Source: Bacteroidales bacterium (GTDB lineage Bacteria > Bacteroidota > Bacteroidia > Bacteroidales > Marinilabiliaceae). Taken from it: DNA of 34,547 nucleotides. Positions 22 through 16,230 of this stretch are shown piece after piece (within the stretch, counting starts at the first letter, position 1; every line of letters begins with the position of its first letter). The translations under genes and the position numbers were made by a program. Location of the stretch: positions 1 through 34,547 of the forward strand of contig JAFYCM010000069.1 in NCBI GenBank assembly GCA_017539645.1. The letters run 5' to 3'. A model generated the notes under the pieces. That model saw only the letters and a program-made list of their open reading frames with translations. It did no database searches and was not told the DNA's origin.

Positions 22-2727
22 TTTCTCGGGCCACACAAAATTGTTGTAGACAATATCCTTGCTGTATCTGTAGCGCATCTCCAATCTGCCGCACACCGCA
101 CGCATCCACGCCATGTGAACCGATGAGGTTAGCACACCAAAATGGTAAAGCGTGGCGGAAGGGATGAGTTGATTAGAATCTCCACAAATAATCTTTGACG
201 AAACATAACCAATAGGTAAATATTGCCTATTCTCTGATGAATGTCTAGGCACGAGCAAATAATGTCCATTTTCGGGTTGACGAATTTCGTCGAATAAAGT
301 TGCTATGTCGGCTTTCTTCTGTGTTGCTACTTTAGGACTTGCGAGTCTGAATTCTTTTACGGATTGAATGCGGCTATATATTTCGTGACAACTCTTTATT
401 TCAGAAGGGCTTGACCCTACTAGCCAAATACAATATCTTTTTTTGTTATTTATAAACTCTTCTGCACCTAAGAATGGTTTTATGAATTTTTCAGCCGAAG
501 GTTCTTTTTTTAGCAATGTTGATTTTTCTTCATCTGATAGAAATAGAAATCCGCCATCGGTTGGCTTATTTCCATATACCATTTGTGGTACGTCACTGAT
601 TGATTTCGAACGACTCTCAATGAAAACATTCGGTGCATCCAATAAATAGGCATTTATATTTGGGGCGTTTATGATTGTTCCATCGGCGTTGAAAATACGG
701 CGTTGTAGGGACGCACCGCGTGCGTCCGCATTTTTCGCGTTGGCGGACGCATTCAATGCGTCCCTACACGAAAAACCAACGATTACACAATGCACATGCG
801 CCTTTTGGTTCGATTCGCTGTCCCAACGAAATGTGCGCCAAGCAAAATCGATTTGTATTCCGAAACGTTCAAATAGCGGTCGCCATATAGCTGCCACTTG
901 TTCGCCTTGCGTAATTGAATTTGTGGAAACGAGGGCTGCACGTGTAGAAACGTTGTGTTCCGTGTCTGTAGAGACGCGGCGCGCCGCGTCTCTACAATAG
1001 GTTGCCATCAATTCAGCGGTTTTGTAATACCAACCAGCCACATAATCAATCTTGCCTGCCGTTTTGTATGGCTTGCCATTTTCGTCTACATATATCGATA
1101 GAATATCTTTTTTCTGTGATTCCGTTTGCAACGAATACCCCACAAACGGCGGATTACCAATGATATAATCATAATGATGCGCCGAGCCGTCGGTTTGGGT
1201 GGTGAAGCCTGCGAACAAATTTGCTTCTCCGTCTCCGGCAATGGGGCATGCCCCATTGTCAATAGGTAAAAGCGTACTCCAATCGGTGCGCAGGGCGTTG
1301 CCTTCCACTATGTATGCATTGGTCTTGAGTGGCAAGAAATTGAGGTTCATACCAAGAATTCTCTCTGTCTCCTCCATCATCTGGCTCTCGGCAATCCACA
1401 ACGCCGTCTTCGCCACCGTCACGGCAAAGTCGTTTATCTCTATGCCGTAGAATTGGCTGATTTTCACGTAGATAAAATCCTCAAAACCAATCACCTTTTC
1501 GCCTTTGTTGAGCGTAGAGATAACCTTGTTTTCAAGTCGGCGTAGCGATAAGTATGTCTCCGTCAGGAAGTTGCCGCTGCCGCAGGCTGGGTCGAGGAAT
1601 GTGAGCGAACCGAGTTTTTGCTGAAAATCAATCAATTGCTGTCGCAGAGACGTGGCGCGCCGCGTCTCTACAATCGATTGATATTCAGCATTCAAATCGT
1701 CCATAAATAGTGGGTCGATAACCTTATGAATGTTCTGAACGCTGGTGTAGTGCATACCGCCTTTGCGGCGAGTGTCGGGATTCAATGTCGATTCGAAAAC
1801 AGCGCCGAAGATGGTTGGCGAAATTTCCGACCAATTGAACGGTGCGCAGTGATTGCAAAGCACGTCTACAATCTCGTCCGTAAAATTCGGAATCTCAATA
1901 TTTTCAGCAGCAAACAGGCCACCGTTTACGTACGGGAATGGTTGCAATTTGGTGTCGTAGCGGTCGCGTTTGTCGAGCGGCGTGTCGAGGGCGCGAAAGA
2001 GTTTTATTATGCCGTCGCGAAGGTTGTCTATTGTGAACGAGCGTATGTAATCTTCAAAAGCCGTGCGCGTGGCGAAAAGTCCTGCGTCTTCGGCATATAG
2101 GCAGAATACCAATCTGACACACAGTATGTTAAGCGAGCGCAGACTCTGCTCGTCTTTAGGATTATAATATTGCTTAATTAGCGCGTCGTAGAGTTTTCCA
2201 ACCAGCACACCAGCTTGCAACGAGAGTTCCTCCTCGCGGCGCAGATAGTCGTGCTTTGCATCGGCAAGAAACTGCAGGCGATAATGCTCTTTTTCAAGGT
2301 CTTTCAGGAAGATTTGTTCGGGCTCAGAGCCTGGTTTCTCAAGGTCGTAGACAAGAAATTCTTGGAAGTTGCACACCACAATCCAGCGCGGCTTTTCCGA
2401 GGCTTTCATCTCGCTCACATAACGCTTGGCCTGCTCGTAGGGCGTAAGTTCCTCGCCATCGCTCTGCGCGTATTTTTTATGGAGGTCGATTTTTGCGCCT
2501 TTCTGCTCGATAAGCGTTTTGGTATCAGGGAGATACGCATCGATAAAGGAAGTGTGCGAGAGTTTTACGCGTTTCTCGAACTCGATGTATTTTGTAGGAT
2601 TCTCGATGCCTAAAACTTCGCTAAGTAACTGAATCCAAAAGCGTTGTGTCTCCTGCTTTTCGTCGCCTTTGTCTGCCCAGAATGCGGCAAACTCAGCGGC
2701 AGCAGCTTGTTGTTGCTGTGGTGTCAT
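1..2727 (-). CDS. MmeI-like (type IIL) single-chain restriction-modification enzyme, 3' end outside window
   Basis: Open from an ATG at 2727 to the window edge (909 codons, no stop yet); an in-frame TAA lies 15 nt upstream, so this is the first usable start. Likely combines endonuclease and adenine-N6 methyltransferase in one chain. Visible: a PD-(D/E)XK-like nuclease motif near the N terminus (D63, E74, K76, spacing D-x10-E-x-K, close to the D-x9-E-x-K of MmeI); methyltransferase motif I FLDPACGSGNF at residues 377-387; motif IV NPPF at 525-528; the C-terminal third would hold target recognition. MmeI relatives are about 900-950 residues, so little is missing. Oddities: palindromic repeats lie inside the frame at 704-768, 967-996, 1239-1258 and 1643-1672 without creating stops. 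No separate methylase or specificity gene is seen. Family call is confident; recognition sequence cannot be read. Confidence 0.88.
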   Translation of the reverse strand, partial: MTPQQQQAAAAEFAAFWADKGDEKQETQRFWIQLLSEVLGIENPTKYIEFEKRVKLSHTSFIDAYLPDTKTLIEQKGAKIDLHKKYAQSDGEELTPYEQAKRYVSEMKASEKPRWIVVCNFQEFLVYDLEKPGSEPEQIFLKDLEKEHYRLQFLADAKHDYLRREEELSLQAGVLVGKLYDALIKQYYNPKDEQSLRSLNILCVRLVFCLYAEDAGLFATRTAFEDYIRSFTIDNLRDGIIKLFRALDTPLDKRDRYDTKLQPFPYVNGGLFAAENIEIPNFTDEIVDVLCNHCAPFNWSEISPTIFGAVFESTLNPDTRRKGGMHYTSVQNIHKVIDPLFMDDLNAEYQSIVETRRATSLRQQLIDFQQKLGSLTFLDPACGSGNFLTETYLSLRRLENKVISTLNKGEKVIGFEDFIYVKISQFYGIEINDFAVTVAKTALWIAESQMMEETERILGMNLNFLPLKTNAYIVEGNALRTDWSTLLPIDNGACPIAGDGEANLFAGFTTQTDGSAHHYDYIIGNPPFVGYSLQTESQKKDILSIYVDENGKPYKTAGKIDYVAGWYYKTAELMATYCRDAARRVSTDTEHNVSTRAALVSTNSITQGEQVAAIWRPLFERFGIQIDFAWRTFRWDSESNQKAHVHCVIVGFSCRDALNASANAKNADARGASLQRRIFNADGTIINAPNINAYLLDAPNVFIESRSKSISDVPQMVYGNKPTDGGFLFLSDEEKSTLLKKEPSAEKFIKPFLGAEEFINNKKRYCIWLVGSSPSEIKSCHEIYSRIQSVKEFRLASPKVATQKKADIATLFDEIRQPENGHYLLVPRHSSENRQYLPIGYVSSKIICGDSNQLIPSATLYHFGVLTSSVHMAWMRAVCGRLEMRYRYSKDIVYNNFVWPEKIENEKLK
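704..768. repeat. 65-bp nested palindromic element inside the restriction-modification gene
   Basis: Outer arms 704-715 (TGTAGGGACGCA) and 757-768 are perfect 12-bp inverted repeats; inner arms 721-729 and 743-751 are a second perfect 9-bp pair. The arms could form a branched cruciform or RNA stem. The element is translated in the host gene as roughly residues 654-675, beginning CRDALNAS, with no stop codon. It resembles REP/MITE-type short palindromes. Confidence 0.85.
967..996. repeat. Perfect 30-bp palindrome, in-frame copy
   Basis: The half-site TGTAGAGACGCGGCG is followed directly by its exact reverse complement. Length 30 is a multiple of three and the element is codon-aligned in the minus-strand gene (residues 578-587, CRDAARRVST). 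A degenerate half copy (GTTTCTACA on the minus strand, about 943-951) lies next to it, suggesting a former tandem arrangement. Confidence 0.9.
1239..1258. repeat. Perfect 20-bp palindrome around GGGGCATGCCCC
   Basis: CAATGGGGCA is followed by its exact reverse complement. It is read through in the restriction-modification gene as part of DNGACPIA, between methyltransferase motifs I and IV. The sequence is unrelated to the GTAGAGACG/GTAGGGACG palindromes, so it would be a second element type in the same gene. Confidence 0.75.
1643..1672. repeat. Second copy of the 30-bp palindrome (three mismatches)
   Basis: Aligns over all 30 bp with the palindrome at 967-996, differing at 1643, 1645 and 1653. 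It sits just before methyltransferase motif I. Here the element is read in a different frame (giving VETRRATSL), so the same DNA is tolerated as coding sequence in two frames. Confidence 0.85.
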
Positions 2728-3067: not shown

Positions 3068-3922
3068 CTAATGCGTAAGAATTTCGCAGCCATTCTCAGT
3101 CATGTGGAGCGTGTGCTCCCATTGAGCTGAGGGCAGGTGGTCGAGCGTGGTGACTGTCCAACCATCTTCGCGGCTAAAGTGAACCTCTTTGCGGCCCATG
3201 TTTATCATAGGTTCTATGGTGAACACCATGCCAGGCACGAGCATCATACCCGTCTTTGGGCGGCCGAAATGGCTAACTTCTGGCTCTTCGTGAAATTCCA
3301 AGCCTACGCCGTGGCCGCAGAGTTCGCGCACCACCGAGTAGCCATTCTTCTGCGCGTGGCACTGTATGGCAAATCCTATGTCGCCCACGAAACTATAAGG
3401 CTTAGCGGTCTCTATACCTATCTTCAAGCATTCGAGCGTAACGTCTACGAGGCGCTGCTTCTCGGGTGTAGTCTCACCACCAATGATGTACATACGCGAT
3501 GCATCGGAGAAGTATCCATTGTAAATAGTTGAAACATCGACGTTTACAATATCGCCTGGTTTGAGAATTGTCTTGGCGTTTGGAATGCCGTGGCAAACTA
3601 CATCGTTGATACTTATGCAGCTGTAGCGCGGATAGCCTTCGTAGTTGAGACAAGCCGAAACAGCACCATGGTCGGCAGTGAACTGTGCAATTTTGTCGTC
3701 GAGTTCGAGCGTCGACATGCCTTCGCGGATCTCCTTCTCCACCATATCGAGAATGCCAGTATTTATTACGCCAGAAGCGCGAATACCTTCAACTTGTTCG
3801 GGGGTCTTGATAAGTTTTCGGGTAGGTACGATATGCCCACTTTTCTGGGCTGCAAGAATTTTTTTGTCCATCTCGGTAAGTGGTTTCCCTTTCTCCACCG
3901 ACCAACGTTTTTTGAATATCAT
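3068..3922 (-). CDS. map: Type I methionine aminopeptidase
   Basis: Removes the initiator methionine from nascent cytosolic proteins. The 284-residue protein carries the full metal-binding set of the pita-bread fold: D129 (VNVDVS), D140 (YFSDASR), H204 (CGHGVG), E237 (FTIEPM) and E269 (WEHTL), with catalytic-site histidines H111 (VCHGIP) and H211. A lysine-rich N-terminal extension of about 35 residues precedes the catalytic domain. It starts 18 bp after the stop of the P-type ATPase gene on the same strand, so the two are probably co-transcribed. Nothing in the active site departs from the family. Confidence 0.96.
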   Translation of the reverse strand: MIFKKRWSVEKGKPLTEMDKKILAAQKSGHIVPTRKLIKTPEQVEGIRASGVINTGILDMVEKEIREGMSTLELDDKIAQFTADHGAVSACLNYEGYPRYSCISINDVVCHGIPNAKTILKPGDIVNVDVSTIYNGYFSDASRMYIIGGETTPEKQRLVDVTLECLKIGIETAKPYSFVGDIGFAIQCHAQKNGYSVVRELCGHGVGLEFHEEPEVSHFGRPKTGMMLVPGMVFTIEPMINMGRKEVHFSREDGWTVTTLDHLPSAQWEHTLHMTENGCEILTH

Positions 3923-3940
3923 ATTACTATTTGTTGTTGT

Positions 3941-6730
3941 TTATTTTTTTGATAGTTCCTCAGACGAAACGCTCTTCCTTTGGTGTCTCTTCCTCAGCCA
4001 AAGTATTAAGCGGAAGCTTTCGCCGAATACCAATGCTATTGATGTCACGCCAATGATTATCATCCAATCGGAGAATGATAGCGGAACAACATTGAAGAGT
4101 TTGCCGCCCAACGATACTATAAGTATCTGACCGAGCAAAATGGCTGCAGTAATTATGTGGAAAGCACTCGTTTTGTCGAGTCGCGAAAATACAGAGCAAG
4201 TCGTATGGAAAGCCTTCATATTGAAGAGTTGCCATAGCTGCGTGACTACGAAAATAGAGAAGAATATCGATGCCTCGTATGGCGTTAGCGTGCCGTTAGG
4301 ATTGTATGTGAAGAAGTGCATACGATAGCTACGCGTGAACACCTCGCTGAGGTCTAAAATGTCGTTGCACATGAAGTAGTGCAGTACCACCAACAGAAGG
4401 ATAACCACGATAGACGATGAGGTTAATATTCTATTGCGGATGCTTTTCGATAGTACATACGATTTGCCGTGGTGTGGTACTTCTTGCATCACCTCTGCTT
4501 CGGGCGGCAACGATACGAGTGCTACCGATGCAGCAATGTTCATAATCATATTTACCCAAAGCATCTGCGTGATGGTGAGTGGTATTTGCCCATTCGTAAT
4601 TATGCTGCCGAATATAACCACAAGTCCAGCAATGAGGTTTATTGATAGCTGGAAGAGGATAAATCGCTGAATGTTGCGGAAAAATGCACGACCGTGGAGC
4701 ACTGCGCGGTTGATGCTCTGGAACGAGTTGTCGAGTATGGTGATGTCGCTGGCTTGCTTAGCTACAGCCGAACCATTGCCCATCGACAGACCCACGGCAG
4801 CCGCCTTGAGAGCTGGAGCATCGTTGGTGCCATCGCCTGTTACGGCAACTACTTCGCCATGCTTCTGCAAAAGTTTCACAAGACGCAATTTATCCATTGG
4901 ACGAGCGCGCGACATAATCTTTATTCTCTTAGCGCATTCGTATGCATCTTCCTCATTCATAGCACTAAACTCAGAACCTGTGACGTGTACGTCGGTGGTG
5001 TCGTATTCGGCGAGAATGCTCGTCTGTCGACCAACTTCCAACGCAGTAGCAGGCGTATCGCCAGTAACTATTTTTATCTTGATGCCAGCGCTGAGACACT
5101 CTTTCACTGCATCGGAAACCTCGGGGCGAATTGGGTCTACAATTGCGGCAACGCCAAGCATTGTGAGTCCGTGCACCATCAGTTCGCCATTGTCGTCGAA
5201 GCATTTGGCATCGCGCTTCACTATTTTGTATGCAAATGCCAAAGTTCGCATTGCATGTAGTTGATATTCAAGAAGAATGAGCTCTATATGTTGGCGTAGA
5301 GATTTCTCGAAAGGAGCGGCGCCCTCTGGCACTTCAAAATATGCGCTCATACCTATGACAATTTCGGGCGCACCCTTCACAAGCAAAAGGTCGGTCGAAG
5401 GATTGTCGGTATGTACGACGGTGGCCATATATTTTTTCTCGGTCGAGAAGGCGCATTGTTCGAATATCTGAGTATTTGAACGAATGGTGCGATAGTCGAC
5501 GCATTGATCGATGAGCCAAATGAGCAGAGCGGCTTCTGTTGGATTGCCAATGGCGAATAGTCCCGAGTCGGTGATGTTGAGGTTGGCCGTAGAGTTCACC
5601 GCAATATTCTTGACTAAAGCGTCCCACGCGCGTTCGTTCTCCTTGAGGTTTTTGAAGTTTATGCTCGGAAGATATGTACTATTTACGCGCATTTGGTTGC
5701 GGGTGAGAGTGCCAGTTTTGTCCGTGCAGATGACGGTGACCGCGCCAATAGTCTCTCCTGCATGCATATTGCGTATTAGGTTCTGCGAGTCGAGCATCTG
5801 CCGCATATTTATAGTCAAACTCAGGTTGATGCCAAGTTGTAGACCTTCGGGAATCATCACCACAATTACAGTTACTGCCACCATCAACGTATCGATGATG
5901 TATTGAATGATTTCGGGAGGAGTATCGGCGTTGTGGCCGATGAAGAAGTTGATGACTCTACCTGCGCAGAACAGTATAGCTAATATGCAGCTAATTATGG
6001 TAATATGGCGCCCGATCCACAACAGTTGCTTCATAAGAGGTGCTTGGGTGTCGGTCTCTGTTTGAGCGCCATGGAACACTTTGCCATATTCGGTGTGGTC
6101 GCCAACCATAGTCACCTTCATAGTGCCGTGTCCGTCGGTGACGATAGAGCCGCGCAGCATACGGTCGCTGGGGTAGGTGGCATCCATATTGAACTTGCTC
6201 GAGTCGGTCGTTTTGCCTACGAGCAGTTCGCCCGTAAGTACACTCTCGTTTACGTGCATTGCCACCGATTCGAGCAAGATGCCATCGGCAGGCACTTCGT
6301 CGCCTACTTCGAGTATAACGACATCGCCCACAACAATGTCGTTGCGAGGTACGACGCTAAAGTTACCATTACGTAGCACCTTTACCGATTGCGCTTCGTC
6401 CTCTTTATTGAGCAGTTCAAAACGGTGTTTGGTGCGCATTTGAAGTATGAAACTTATGGTCGATGTTACCAAAACAACCAACAGAATACTAACAGGAGCG
6501 TAGAATACGCCACTCGTGCTGCTATTGGTGATGGTTTGATATATGGCTATAGCAAACGACAGAAGCATCATTACTAGCATCGTCAAAGAGAGCGGAGTCT
6601 TGAATTCCTTCAACAATATGCTATACGAACCCTTGTCGACAGGTGGTGCTATTATGTTGCTTCCAAACAATTTGCGGTTTTCCAGAACTTGTGTGTTGTT
6701 CAGGCCATCTATCTGTCTGCTTTGTTTCAT
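3941..6730 (-). CDS. P2-type cation-transporting P-type ATPase (calcium-pump-like)
   Basis: Membrane pump of 929 residues that uses ATP to move cations. Landmarks: actuator motif TGEL with E168; M4 motif IPEGLQLG (294-300 region); phosphorylation motif DKTGTLT with D337; KGAPE at 452-456; TGDGTNDAP at 631-639; about ten membrane segments, four in the C-terminal part. The domain order and length fit PMCA-type bacterial calcium ATPases. Two positions are unusual: the M4 PEGLP proline is Q298, and M6 reads WVNMIMN (725-731), with N731 where calcium pumps carry the ligand aspartate of WVNLIMD. The ion may therefore not be calcium. A TATCTTTG box lies about 20 bp upstream, and map follows in the same direction. 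Confidence 0.9.
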   Translation of the reverse strand: MKQSRQIDGLNNTQVLENRKLFGSNIIAPPVDKGSYSILLKEFKTPLSLTMLVMMLLSFAIAIYQTITNSSTSGVFYAPVSILLVVLVTSTISFILQMRTKHRFELLNKEDEAQSVKVLRNGNFSVVPRNDIVVGDVVILEVGDEVPADGILLESVAMHVNESVLTGELLVGKTTDSSKFNMDATYPSDRMLRGSIVTDGHGTMKVTMVGDHTEYGKVFHGAQTETDTQAPLMKQLLWIGRHITIISCILAILFCAGRVINFFIGHNADTPPEIIQYIIDTLMVAVTVIVVMIPEGLQLGINLSLTINMRQMLDSQNLIRNMHAGETIGAVTVICTDKTGTLTRNQMRVNSTYLPSINFKNLKENERAWDALVKNIAVNSTANLNITDSGLFAIGNPTEAALLIWLIDQCVDYRTIRSNTQIFEQCAFSTEKKYMATVVHTDNPSTDLLLVKGAPEIVIGMSAYFEVPEGAAPFEKSLRQHIELILLEYQLHAMRTLAFAYKIVKRDAKCFDDNGELMVHGLTMLGVAAIVDPIRPEVSDAVKECLSAGIKIKIVTGDTPATALEVGRQTSILAEYDTTDVHVTGSEFSAMNEEDAYECAKRIKIMSRARPMDKLRLVKLLQKHGEVVAVTGDGTNDAPALKAAAVGLSMGNGSAVAKQASDITILDNSFQSINRAVLHGRAFFRNIQRFILFQLSINLIAGLVVIFGSIITNGQIPLTITQMLWVNMIMNIAASVALVSLPPEAEVMQEVPHHGKSYVLSKSIRNRILTSSSIVVILLLVVLHYFMCNDILDLSEVFTRSYRMHFFTYNPNGTLTPYEASIFFSIFVVTQLWQLFNMKAFHTTCSVFSRLDKTSAFHIITAAILLGQILIVSLGGKLFNVVPLSFSDWMIIIGVTSIALVFGESFRLILWLRKRHQRKSVSSEELSKK

Positions 6731-6751
6731 AGTTTATCGCCTTTATGCGAG

Positions 6752-6759
6752 CAAAGATA
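6752..6759 (-). promoter_or_regulatory. Bacteroidetes -7 box (TATCTTTG) for the P-type ATPase/map unit
   Basis: On the minus strand TATCTTTG matches TAnnTTTG and lies about 22 bp before the ATPase ATG. No well-spaced TTG -33 element was identified. The divergent gap 6731-6961 also holds an imperfect palindrome CCAATAATTATTTGG at 6840-6854. Confidence 0.4.
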
Positions 6760-6961
6760 AACTACAATAGCTTATCTACTTTAGAATTGTTATACAAATT
6801 TATGGCTAAGTGCATAGTCGCCCTTTCTCGAATATTATTCCAATAATTATTTGGTAGAAATATTTGCGTACTCTAATTTTATAATCATTATTAATAATCG
6901 TTTCTGCGCATTATTGCTTTTGATTGGAAATTATCCGTAAACGTCTCTATGTAAAATATTT

Positions 6962-7504
6962 ATGTCGATAAAACCCTTCTTCTTATGCATTGTATATGCA
7001 GTGGCTTTTGCTCTTATTTCTAATAATTATGCTCATGCTCAAGAGTCTACCGAAACCACGCAGCGCCGTTTTTCGCCCGAAATTGGTGCGTTAGCCGAGG
7101 CTCAGTTGTGGTATACCAGTATTGAACTCACTGGCAACGTGCTCACTCCACGCAACAATGTGTTTGGTATAAATGTGGGCAGATCGATGTTTACCTATAA
7201 TGACGATTGCGTGGATGAGTACACTTTGAAATTTTGCTTGCACTATCGGCACTATTTCCCATTTGGCAAACGCAAACGTGTCGCTTTCTATCCCGATATT
7301 ATTATGGGTACTGAGTACGTATATAAAATGGTAATAGCTGTTGATACCGAAATTGATGACGATGACTACTTAGGCAAAGGCAACTTTGGACCTATGGGAA
7401 CTGTGCGTGCTGGTTTTGCCTTCAATTTGAAGCACGATTCACGACTGTTCCTTGGCTTGTCGTTTGTTCCAACGTTAGGTGTACATATCGGTTATGTACT
7501 TTAG
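6962..7504 (+). CDS. Predicted outer-membrane beta-barrel protein, unrecognised family
   Basis: 180 residues. A hydrophobic N-terminal signal peptide ends near AHAQ (residues 24-27). The mature part has alternating polar/hydrophobic segments rich in Tyr, Phe and Gly, such as YRHYFPFGKRKRVAFYPDII and RAGFAFNLKH, typical of small barrels with about eight strands, and no other hydrophobic helix. I do not recognise a named family. It stands alone between the divergent ATPase and the activase gene. Function unknown; periplasmic or outer-membrane location is inferred from the signal peptide and strand pattern. Confidence 0.65.
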   Translation: MSIKPFFLCIVYAVAFALISNNYAHAQESTETTQRRFSPEIGALAEAQLWYTSIELTGNVLTPRNNVFGINVGRSMFTYNDDCVDEYTLKFCLHYRHYFPFGKRKRVAFYPDIIMGTEYVYKMVIAVDTEIDDDDYLGKGNFGPMGTVRAGFAFNLKHDSRLFLGLSFVPTLGVHIGYVL

Positions 7505-7700
7505 ATCCAATAGTATGAGTACTAACAAAATCTGAATTTTTATGCAATTTGGGTTCGCTTAGAGATGGATGAAAATTGTAAAAACATTCCACGATGTGCT
7601 AAGTATGAGAATGAAGACGCGTAAGATTATAACGATTATATATTTCCACAAACCACCTTGTAATATAAGTACTCATAATTCGTAATTGAATTTTAATTGG

Positions 7701-7708
7701 TAATTTCG
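7701..7708 (+). promoter_or_regulatory. Possible -7 box (TAATTTCG) for the activase gene
   Basis: One mismatch to TAnnTTTG, 31 bp upstream of the ATG at 7740. It follows an AT-rich stretch containing ATTCGTAATT, also seen before other promoters in this window. The gap 7505-7739 additionally has a 10-bp inverted repeat, 7514-7523 (TATGAGTACT) and 7668-7677. Confidence 0.3.
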
Positions 7709-7739
7709 CGGCAAAATTGAAGGAAGAAACAACGATAAC

Positions 7740-14402: not shown

Positions 14403-16178
14403 ATGAAAACACGAATTAGAAGTTTTGCTTTTGCTATTTGCGTAGGTCTAACATTTTCGGCCTGCAACGAGGACACTCTCAACACTGTGCTCGAAATAAT
14501 TGGCGCAGTTTTGGCTGAAGATGGCACTACCACTATTGCTACCGACGATGGTACTTACCTTGGTTGGCTCGGCGACGAAGAAGACCCAGAGACTATCGAG
14601 GACGACATTGACCTCAACAATGTAAATAATGATATTACTGGTGAGTTGCCAACGAAGGTCGACCTTTCGAAAAACTTACCAAAAGTTGGTGACCAAGGCG
14701 AATATGGTACATGTGTAGCGTGGGCTACAGCGTACAACTGCCGCACATGGCTTTATGCTAAATCTAAAGGGTTGAAAACGAGCCAACTGAATGATGCTAA
14801 CACATTTTCGCCAGCCGATGTATTTATGGCTATATCTAATGATGATAAGGGCAAAAATTGCGGCGGCACGAATATCCGCTATGCATTCGATGTGATGCAG
14901 ACTCGCGGTGTAGCTACTCAGGCTGAAGTGCCATACACTAAAGATATGTGCTCGTGTTCGCCTTCAGCATCGGCAACTTCGTCGGCGAATAACTATAAGA
15001 TAAAGGCCTATCGCGAGATAAATATCAAAGACGTAAATACCGTAAAACGTTACTTGGCTAACGGCCGTTTGGTGGTTTTCGGTGCGAAACTTGGCGATGA
15101 ATTTATGTATACAAACGATGCCACCGTGCTTACCAAACAGACTTCATTCAAGTCGACCGGTCAACATGGCTATCACGCTATTGTTTGCTGTGGCTACGAC
15201 GATAACAAAGGCGCTCATGGTGCGTTCCGCGTGGTGAATTCTTGGGGTTCGTCGTGGGGCGACAGTGGCTACATCTGGGTTGATTACAACTTCTTTTGCG
15301 GCGGCGAGTTTGCCTACACAGGCTTCGTTGCATACGGTTTGGACGAGGAGATTGTAGTTGACGAGACCGAAAATACAGTAACAAATACCTCGGAAGGTTA
15401 CGACCTCGTGCCACTTACGCTAAATGATGTCGACTACGACGAGCCATCTGACCCAGATTCTGATGACCCAACGTGGCGTTCTATTGTATATAATGTGTAC
15501 AATGCTGGTTCACAGACTATAACGCCTAAAAATCCGTGGGGTATCATATATGTACTTTATGATGCATACAAAGCAAATGATTACCAAGTTTTACTTGTTG
15601 ACCTCTATACAGACGTGTTTGGTAAGTACACCAACCCAGACACAGGCAAAGAACAAAACTACAACCCTAATTGGGACGAAAATGTGGCTAAGGAGATGCT
15701 TGGCGTATCGGCTCAAGGTTACTGCTGGAGCAACGTTGATGTGGCTGGTGGAGAGAGCGTTTCGCACGCTGTATACGGCAACGATAGCCCATTTGAGTGG
15801 GGCTACAAAATGCCAGATGTCACAGGTTCGTACTATTTAGTTATGATTACCGATGCATTCAGCACTATTGCCGAAGACAATGAGGATAATAATTACTACT
15901 TCCTAACCACAAGCAATGGCAAACCGTTGGAAATAAAGAATGGAGTTATTACAAGTACTATAGGAAATAATAAGTCGGCTAAGATTCGCACCAGCGGCGA
16001 GTCTCCATCGCCAACGGCTGTGACACCCGAAGCGCCTAATACCTACACTCCGAAAGAGATTTCAGCAATGATAAGGGCACATCGTCGTTCGGGAGAACTC
16101 AAGAGCAAAGCTCTCAAGTGGTGCGAAAGCGAAGACGGGAAGGCTGTTCTTGCAAAGAAGAGAAAACAAGTAAATTGA
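14403..16178 (+). CDS. Papain-like (C1A) cysteine peptidase lipoprotein with C-terminal CARDB-like region
   Basis: 591 residues. The lipoprotein signal has a lipobox at FSAC (C21). An acidic linker (about 40-80) precedes a C1A peptidase core with a complete active site: Q99 and C104 in GDQGEYGTCVAWA, H258 in GYHAIVCCGY, and N279 in VVNSWGSSWGDSGY. There is no recognisable inhibitory prodomain. Residues about 330-520 look like a beta-sandwich of CARDB type (LVPLTLND, EDNEDNNYY), probably for protein or glycan binding. A basic tail follows. The lipid anchor implies envelope location and proteolysis of extracellular or periplasmic substrates. The stop codon lies in the first unit of a heptamer repeat. 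Peptidase assignment is firm; substrate and export route are unknown. Confidence 0.88.
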   Translation: MKTRIRSFAFAICVGLTFSACNEDTLNTVLEIIGAVLAEDGTTTIATDDGTYLGWLGDEEDPETIEDDIDLNNVNNDITGELPTKVDLSKNLPKVGDQGEYGTCVAWATAYNCRTWLYAKSKGLKTSQLNDANTFSPADVFMAISNDDKGKNCGGTNIRYAFDVMQTRGVATQAEVPYTKDMCSCSPSASATSSANNYKIKAYREINIKDVNTVKRYLANGRLVVFGAKLGDEFMYTNDATVLTKQTSFKSTGQHGYHAIVCCGYDDNKGAHGAFRVVNSWGSSWGDSGYIWVDYNFFCGGEFAYTGFVAYGLDEEIVVDETENTVTNTSEGYDLVPLTLNDVDYDEPSDPDSDDPTWRSIVYNVYNAGSQTITPKNPWGIIYVLYDAYKANDYQVLLVDLYTDVFGKYTNPDTGKEQNYNPNWDENVAKEMLGVSAQGYCWSNVDVAGGESVSHAVYGNDSPFEWGYKMPDVTGSYYLVMITDAFSTIAEDNEDNNYYFLTTSNGKPLEIKNGVITSTIGNNKSAKIRTSGESPSPTAVTPEAPNTYTPKEISAMIRAHRRSGELKSKALKWCESEDGKAVLAKKRKQVN

Positions 16179-16230
16179 AAATTGAAAATTGAAAGTTGAA
16201 AATTGAAAAGCTGGAAATTGGGAATTGAAA
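16174..16230 (+). repeat. Tandem 7-bp repeat ATTGAAA
   Basis: Five near-perfect units run from 16174 to 16208 (the fourth is GTTGAAA), followed by decayed units to about 16230. The peptidase stop TGA is inside the first unit. The same heptamer occurs at 1-21 on the opposite strand, again at a gene's 3' end. Confidence 0.85.

Follow-up and report, generated by a model that had tools for sequence, protein, structure and literature searches.

Repetitive extragenic palindromes (REPs) of the GTAG/CGTC type are short and mostly intergenic, with some copies inside genes, and the GTAG type is hypothesised to be moved by REP-associated tyrosine transposases (RAYTs) (Di Nocera et al. 2013, PMC3733652). 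According to the main text of that paper, REP sub-families carry alternative complementary stem residues, different REPs occupy about the same site in recB of two Xanthomonas species, and two families of Rickettsia palindromic elements are equated with short REPs. The Rickettsia elements, about 150 bp long, lie in unrelated metabolic genes (review PMC10969869). Among RAYTs, TnpA-Y1 subclass 2.4 is abundant in Bacteroidetes and Cyanobacteria, carries NH[IFV]H and WQ motifs and has REP copies within the transposase gene as a unique feature; the main text of the same source discards a few unexpectedly long proteins as "gene fusions or annotation errors" (PMC6006769). Here we analyse a 34,547-nucleotide stretch of a Bacteroidales bacterium of the family Marinilabiliaceae (assembly GCA_017539645.1, contig JAFYCM010000069.1; hereafter the window), in which an MmeI-type (type IIG) restriction-modification (R-M) gene holds four palindromes in frame. 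We consider it likely that hairpins of this REP-like kind, mobilised by RAYTs, insert broadly and are retained by flexible linkers of R-M enzymes.

The main palindrome family of this gene, family 1, shares with GTAG/CGTC REPs the form of short, mainly intergenic palindromes with paired arm changes and some copies in genes. Family 1 copies (30 or 31 bp) and those of a second, unrelated family 2 (about 20 bp) fall within the 20-40 bp expected of REPs, while one composite hairpin is longer, at 65 bp. Family 1 also has the mainly intergenic, multicopy distribution of REPs, with 25 of 32 copies in its own genome outside open reading frames (ORFs) of at least 100 aa, although copy number is moderate. 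However, one end of a REP bears a GTAG or CGTC tag that is unpaired, whereas the GTAG of family 1 pairs with CTAC, and we therefore call the elements REP-like rather than GTAG REPs. The intragenic hosts named in the main text of PMC3733652 are DNA repair, replication and RNA-related genes; neither "restriction" nor "methyltransferase" occurs in that main text, which is accompanied by a separate list of target ORFs (Additional file 3), and "restriction" is absent from the main text of PMC6006769, as distinct from its additional files. The original prediction, made from the sequence of the window, likened the palindromes to Rickettsia palindromic elements. The likeness holds for behaviour, both being palindromic repeats in frame inside proteins, but not for membership: the elements described here measure 20-65 bp, belong to Bacteroidales and are concentrated in R-M genes of one genus.

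Palindromes in the host gene and its homologues

The host gene occupies positions 1-2727 on the minus strand, with 909 codons visible and its 3' end lost at the contig start. The Pfam domains that define the MmeI type in our test (MmeI_N, MmeI_hel, MmeI_Mtase and MmeI_TRD) are all matched, MmeI_C being out of view because the contig ends, and the gene matches PADLOC REase_MTase_IIG (E 3.9e-299). MmeI itself (PDB 5hr4) belongs to the same protein family and has the same domain order. In comparisons of the window gene with its relatives, dN/dS in the N half is 0.11 for L195, 0.07 for L196, 0.11 for L178, 0.08 for L118 and 0.06 for L039 (five of eight pairs, the other three being saturated), and it ranges from 0.08 to 0.23 over the methyltransferase stretch in all eight; in the TRD it is 0.35 for L195, the sole unsaturated pair there. 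These values fit purifying selection on the host gene, less strong in the specificity domain, and are not in themselves proof of activity. The gene probably specifies a working enzyme, and the element-coded peptides are presumably translated.

Both palindromes named in the original prediction are real. At 967-996 (site B) lies a perfect 30-bp palindrome read CRDAARRVST (aa 578-587), and at 1643-1672 (site A) the same palindrome with three mismatches, read VETRRATSL (aa 353-361). As was also claimed, the 909-codon frame stays open across both, and the palindrome is free of stops in the frames used, the 30-bp form having stops in just one of its three frames. The count of two was nevertheless too low, since the gene holds four. 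Site C (704-768) is the 65-bp composite hairpin, an inverted repeat TGTAGGGACGC..GCGTCCCTACA read CRDALNASANAKNADARGASLQ, a type also found in L037, L038 and L117, and site D (1239-1258), which precedes the NPPF motif, is an in-frame 20-bp palindrome of family 2 (CAATGGGGCATGCCCCATTG). A degenerate half-element recognised by eye adjoins site B at 943-966, and the same-genus copy in L117 starts TGTATAGACGCGG on the same strand. Site A lies at the start of the Pfam Mtase match (aa 359), site B is a net insertion within the methyltransferase domain, and site C falls between two Pfam matches, that of Mtase, which ends at aa 653, and that of TRD, which starts at aa 697. Folded as single-stranded DNA, sites A to D reach -8.7, -15.1, -24.6 and -8.3 kcal/mol (z against shuffles -2.2, -5.3, -5.9 and -2.6), site D being folded together with a few flanking bases.

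Most homologues do not have these elements. We aligned the sites across 82 MmeI-type proteins, including that of the window and excluding L057, whose frame is broken in two. The site B segment has 24-26 residues in 80 of the 82 (exactly 25 in 73), compared with 41 in the window protein and 32 in its paralogue L033, which carries a palindrome of its own with a different centre; L117 (genome G055), outside the 82, has the window's form. The site C segment numbers 51 residues in the window protein and 35 in 54 of the 82; here a different short palindrome is found in paralogues L032 and L033, a GTAGGGGCGAAA palindrome in L118 and a long in-frame insert in L041. At site A the segment has 31 residues in 73 proteins, the window protein among them. 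MmeI (PDB 5hr4) lacks residues at sites A, B and C. The expectation that the element-coded peptides are clean insertions was thus borne out at sites B and C, where MmeI and most homologues lack them, but not at site A.

Similar residues at site A do exist in other carriers, which in the original prediction would have spoken against a mobile element, but their centres differ. Longer palindromes are found here in L039 and in two same-genus genes, L117 and L118, those of L039 and L117 having other centres, and L064 (UBP6) and L116 (Spirochaetales) have GTAGAG..CTAC-type ends. Because the centres differ among relatives while the site remains palindromic in L039, L117 and L118, site A looks like a place of recurrence, turnover or transfer of gene plus element, and we rejected a purely shared ancestral motif.

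A further case of insertion is L302 of G055, which has 23 extra residues, including the element, that are absent in 12 of 12 aligned homologues. This gene is called methyltransferase-like from motif reading alone; at the limits used, Pfam, NCBIfam, PADLOC and PDB gave no match. Its reading frame appears to continue upstream at L302 positions 3500-4000, where an in-frame stop and a palindrome of family 2 occur; the own-genome relative L345 is open across 832 aa.

Palindrome families, their hosts and RAYT-like genes

Further copies, which the original prediction had asked for, are present in the genome and mostly intergenic. The half-site TGTAGAGACGCGGCG occurs at 9 places, TGTAGRGACGC at 23 and the full family 1 pattern, TAGRGACG(N0-30)CGTCYCTA, at 32 places in 3.44 Mb, the reversed control giving 0 each time. 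The full pattern is also found in the relatives G055 (22 places), G058 (2), G219 (5) and G452 (55), with reversed controls of 0, 1, 1 and 0, respectively. The centres vary, both arms changing together (CGGCGCGCCG, TTGCGCGCAA, TAGCGCGCTA, GAGCGCGCTC and TTTCATGAAA). The third frame of the 30-bp form opens with TAG, a stop, and is unused in all 28 curated in-frame copies because the host frame must be open.

With ORFs of at least 100 aa, the longest taken first, family 1 matches fall inside ORFs in 7 of 32 cases in the own genome, 5 of 22 in G055 (four copies, one RAYT copy being matched twice), 1 of 2 in G058, 3 of 5 in G219 and 15 of the 46 examined, out of 55 counted, in G452, where overlapping double matches also occur. 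Outside RAYT genes, seven of the eight in-ORF copies in three genomes of this genus (G000, G055 and G058) lie in R-M or methyltransferase-like genes, L302, identified by motif reading only, being counted among the seven, and the eighth sits in a doubtful 144-aa ORF; the single such copy in G219 is likewise in an R-M or methyltransferase-like gene. The R-M genes noted in the own genome (the window gene, L032, L033 and L172) make up only about 12 kb of 3436 kb, or about 14 kb if the methyltransferase-like L345 is counted. G452 has seven copies at aa 32-58 of proteins with, on our own reading, lipoprotein-signal-like starts, together with one in a DUF5063 protein, one in an ABC ATPase tail (our own reading) and one in a doubtful ORF. 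In the lipoprotein-like hosts L318, L320, L321, L322 and L337, the copies lie in the likely tether region near the N-terminus. Altogether, the 28 curated in-frame copies comprise 10 in R-M or methyltransferase-like genes, 9 in RAYTs and 9 in others, excluding L181 (144 aa) and L315 (114 aa) as probable spurious ORFs.

Family 2 has a similar host preference. Its core GGGGCATGCCCC was counted at 8 places in the own genome and at 20 in G055, with none for the reversed control. Twelve of these 28 copies are in ORFs. R-M genes account for 10 of the 12: L194 has six, L196 two, and L195 and the window gene one each. The other two are at aa 4 and 9, where true starts are uncertain, and one copy counted as intergenic lies, by eye, towards the 5' end of the L302 locus, ahead of its in-frame stop.

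The family 1 palindromes are also found in frame within RAYT-like genes. L183 of the own genome, with 217 codons, has two copies in frame and two upstream; it matches NCBIfam REP_Tyr_transpos (E 1.1e-15, under the curated cut-off) and has no Pfam match. Six more RAYT-like genes in G055, G219 and G452 contain in-frame copies and match the same model below cut-off, so that the nine curated RAYT copies are spread over seven genes in four genomes; against NF047646, these seven give E values from 8e-12 to 1e-19 and 45-71 bits, with a cut-off of 80. L036, the other RAYT-like gene noted in the own genome, scores 96 bits against NF047646, above cut-off, and has no copy. Several centres are common to RAYT-like genes and R-M genes: CGATTAATCG is found in RAYT-like L334 and at site C of L313 in one genome, CACGGCCGTG in RAYT-like L317 and at site A of L039, TTTCATGAAA in L183, in L300 and near the C-terminus of L312, and ATGTGCACAT in L300 and, one change away, at site A of the G055 gene L117. 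L183 agrees with the published account of subclass 2.4 in its NHIH and WQ motifs and its two internal copies. Not all of the RAYTs here retain the subclass motif YIxNNP: L317 (YIDNNP) and L334 (YIGNNP) do, whereas L183 has YIENNV and L340 has YIEHNP. These associations suggest that RAYTs would be the mobilising enzymes.

Recurrent linker sites in MmeI-type genes

Among 144 distinct MmeI-type genes, in which the window gene is kept only as a partial copy, L019 (756 aa), we found 19 hairpins with a score of at least 12. Fifteen of them lie at five stretches of the window protein numbering (aa 354-357, 493, 582-593, 652-672 and 902-905), which were defined after the data were seen, and four lie elsewhere. 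Three of the five stretches are at edges of Pfam matches, namely the start of Mtase, the passage from Mtase to TRD and the end of TRD. Site C of the window is not among the 19, because the full window gene was dropped as too like L195. Unrelated repeats occupy the same sites in other genes; examples are site A in the spirochaete L045 and site C in both L114 and L079. L045, L079, L114 and L100, from spirochaete and other assemblies, have long in-frame inserts at the same MmeI linkers, and the peptides of such linker inserts include CHPELVSGS..KQVRND and RHSEHSEESQRCFAGAQ.

In two R-M genes, a whole RAYT-like domain lies in frame. L041 of another Bacteroidales assembly (3965-7717) has about 280 extra residues at site C that match Y1_Tnp (E 3.1e-8) and REP_Tyr_transpos (E 5.5e-17, below cut-off) and share one frame with all five MmeI domains. 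L194 of G055 has an insert directly before NPPY with matches to Y1_Tnp (E 1e-7) and REP_Tyr_transpos (E 1.8e-12, below cut-off). Compared with the own-genome type IIG gene L172, L194 is 88% identical over the first 600 aligned residues and 74% over the remaining 548, and the two carry different palindromes at other linkers.

Positions 2728-2980, directly upstream of the R-M start codon, are strongly folded (RNA z -6.1) and have no Rfam match. Sequence with 87% identity to this stretch precedes the MmeI gene L196 of G055, and similarity (about 71% identity over 122 bases) extends to the regions ahead of the unrelated methyltransferase-like genes L302 and L345. The four-sequence alignment has 60 predicted pairs, 10 of which have both partners changed in one or more of the sequences, and a model of the 3' third gave a weak match (E 0.017) in the start region of the G219 MmeI gene L312 among 72 sources. 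The stretch is a candidate for a structured leader common to different R-M genes. Elsewhere in the window, runs of AAAATTGAAAATTGAAA-type repeats lie at the contig edge (1-26) and between genes (16169-16208).

Origin and retention of the elements

The account that we favour would run as follows. The palindromes would be non-autonomous, REP-like mobile hairpins moved by RAYT (Y1, HUH) transposases and inserting across the genome. Within genes, only frame-keeping copies would survive, as two of three frames allow, and mainly where extra residues are tolerated, that is, in the domain linkers of large R-M enzymes, in the RAYT's own loops and, in another family of the order, in the N-terminal part of lipoprotein-like proteins. 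The same R-M linkers would be hit repeatedly by unrelated palindromes, with a whole in-frame RAYT-like domain occasionally kept, and would therefore act as capture sites. Several results weigh against this account or limit it. The segment at site A has unchanged length, so that the element replaced linker sequence instead of making a net insertion, and at site C the gain in residues is smaller than the element. The excess of hairpins in MmeI-type genes is modest (19 in 410 kb versus 8 in 419 kb of other ORFs, a mixed-phylum control of 369 ORFs in which two of the eight are in the RAYT gene L183). In G452, which belongs to another family, R-M genes have only 2 of the 12 non-RAYT in-ORF copies, and neither RAYT-like gene of the own genome, L183 or L036, has the window's centre CGGCGCGCCG, L183 having TTTCATGAAA. 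Moreover, the analysis rests on draft genome assemblies, several from metagenomes, and copies in one gene or in related genes are not independent events.

The palindromes could instead travel with specificity cassettes and mark or promote crossovers, their linker location then reflecting domain shuffling. The host R-M genes are indeed mosaics: between related alleles, near-identity gives way abruptly to divergence, as it does through the specificity region. The window gene and L196 have 96-97% DNA identity to aa 483 bar four residues and 53-59% thereafter, a level broken by islands at aa 508-530 (96%) and, around site C, at aa 625-687 (91%). L302 and L345 are 98% identical to aa 329, near the element at aa 341-350, then 52-59% to aa 588 with a short 97% stretch before that point, and 95-96% almost to the end. 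However, 55 breakpoints in five pairs are only slightly nearer to palindromes than random positions are (combined p 0.008; the pairs overlap, and replaced linkers were included as breakpoints), linkers are natural breakpoints in any case, and 25 of the 32 own-genome copies are intergenic. Such a recombination vehicle thus seems unlikely to us, and the link between breakpoints and palindromes, being weak and confounded, forms no part of our case. We give still less credence to a selected function, in which hairpins would tune interdomain distance or flexibility or pause translation through the fold of the mRNA. Positions do recur at domain linkers across unrelated palindrome families, and sites B and C fold strongly (z below -5), A and D being weaker, but most homologues do without the elements (73 of 82 have 31 residues at A and, separately, 73 of 82 have 25 at B), and paralogues in one genome vary in both sites and families.

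Chance or compositional palindromes in GC-rich coding sequence can be almost wholly discounted, and for the family as a whole copy number rules out such an origin. Short palindromes do arise at random, four of the 19 hairpins lie off the recurrent stretches and eight occur in control ORFs. Nevertheless, reversed controls gave nothing in the own genome and one place each in two relatives. A synonymous-codon null yielded a mean of 2.8 hairpins against 30 observed in 159 ORFs, a set that includes partial repeats of the window gene, and for scores of at least 14 it yielded 0.2 against 22 observed in that set, or 13 after de-duplication. Retention of RAYT-moved hairpins in tolerant linkers remains our preferred explanation. 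A stronger form of it strikes us as improbable: that the linkers of type IIG and related R-M enzymes are standing capture sites for hairpins and RAYTs, that the R-M gene carries the mobile family, that linker elements are swapped repeatedly and so help to reshuffle specificity domains, and that the L041 and L194 fusions, with HUH-like motifs on our own reading, are working composite enzymes.

Rickettsia and intragenic REPs already provide examples of in-frame palindromes in genes, and recB of Xanthomonas provides one of recurrence at a single site (main text of PMC3733652). What is new, as far as the literature examined goes, is the concentration in R-M linkers of two unrelated palindrome families in one genus, together with RAYT-like domains in frame. 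Among the matches listed from open-licence papers without their supplements, including those for the string GTAGAGACG, no title or beginning of an abstract described R-M genes with in-frame REP-like elements or RAYTs. L172 and L194 are related alleles that agree almost completely over long stretches and differ in the C-terminal part and at several linkers, so that the effect of the inserts can be tested directly on them. If the RAYT fusions are expressed, a transposase domain would be joined to a restriction enzyme. More generally, these elements point to a possible route by which mobile DNA may repeatedly add or replace peptide in a defence enzyme, with the frame intact, at the joints of its specificity domain.

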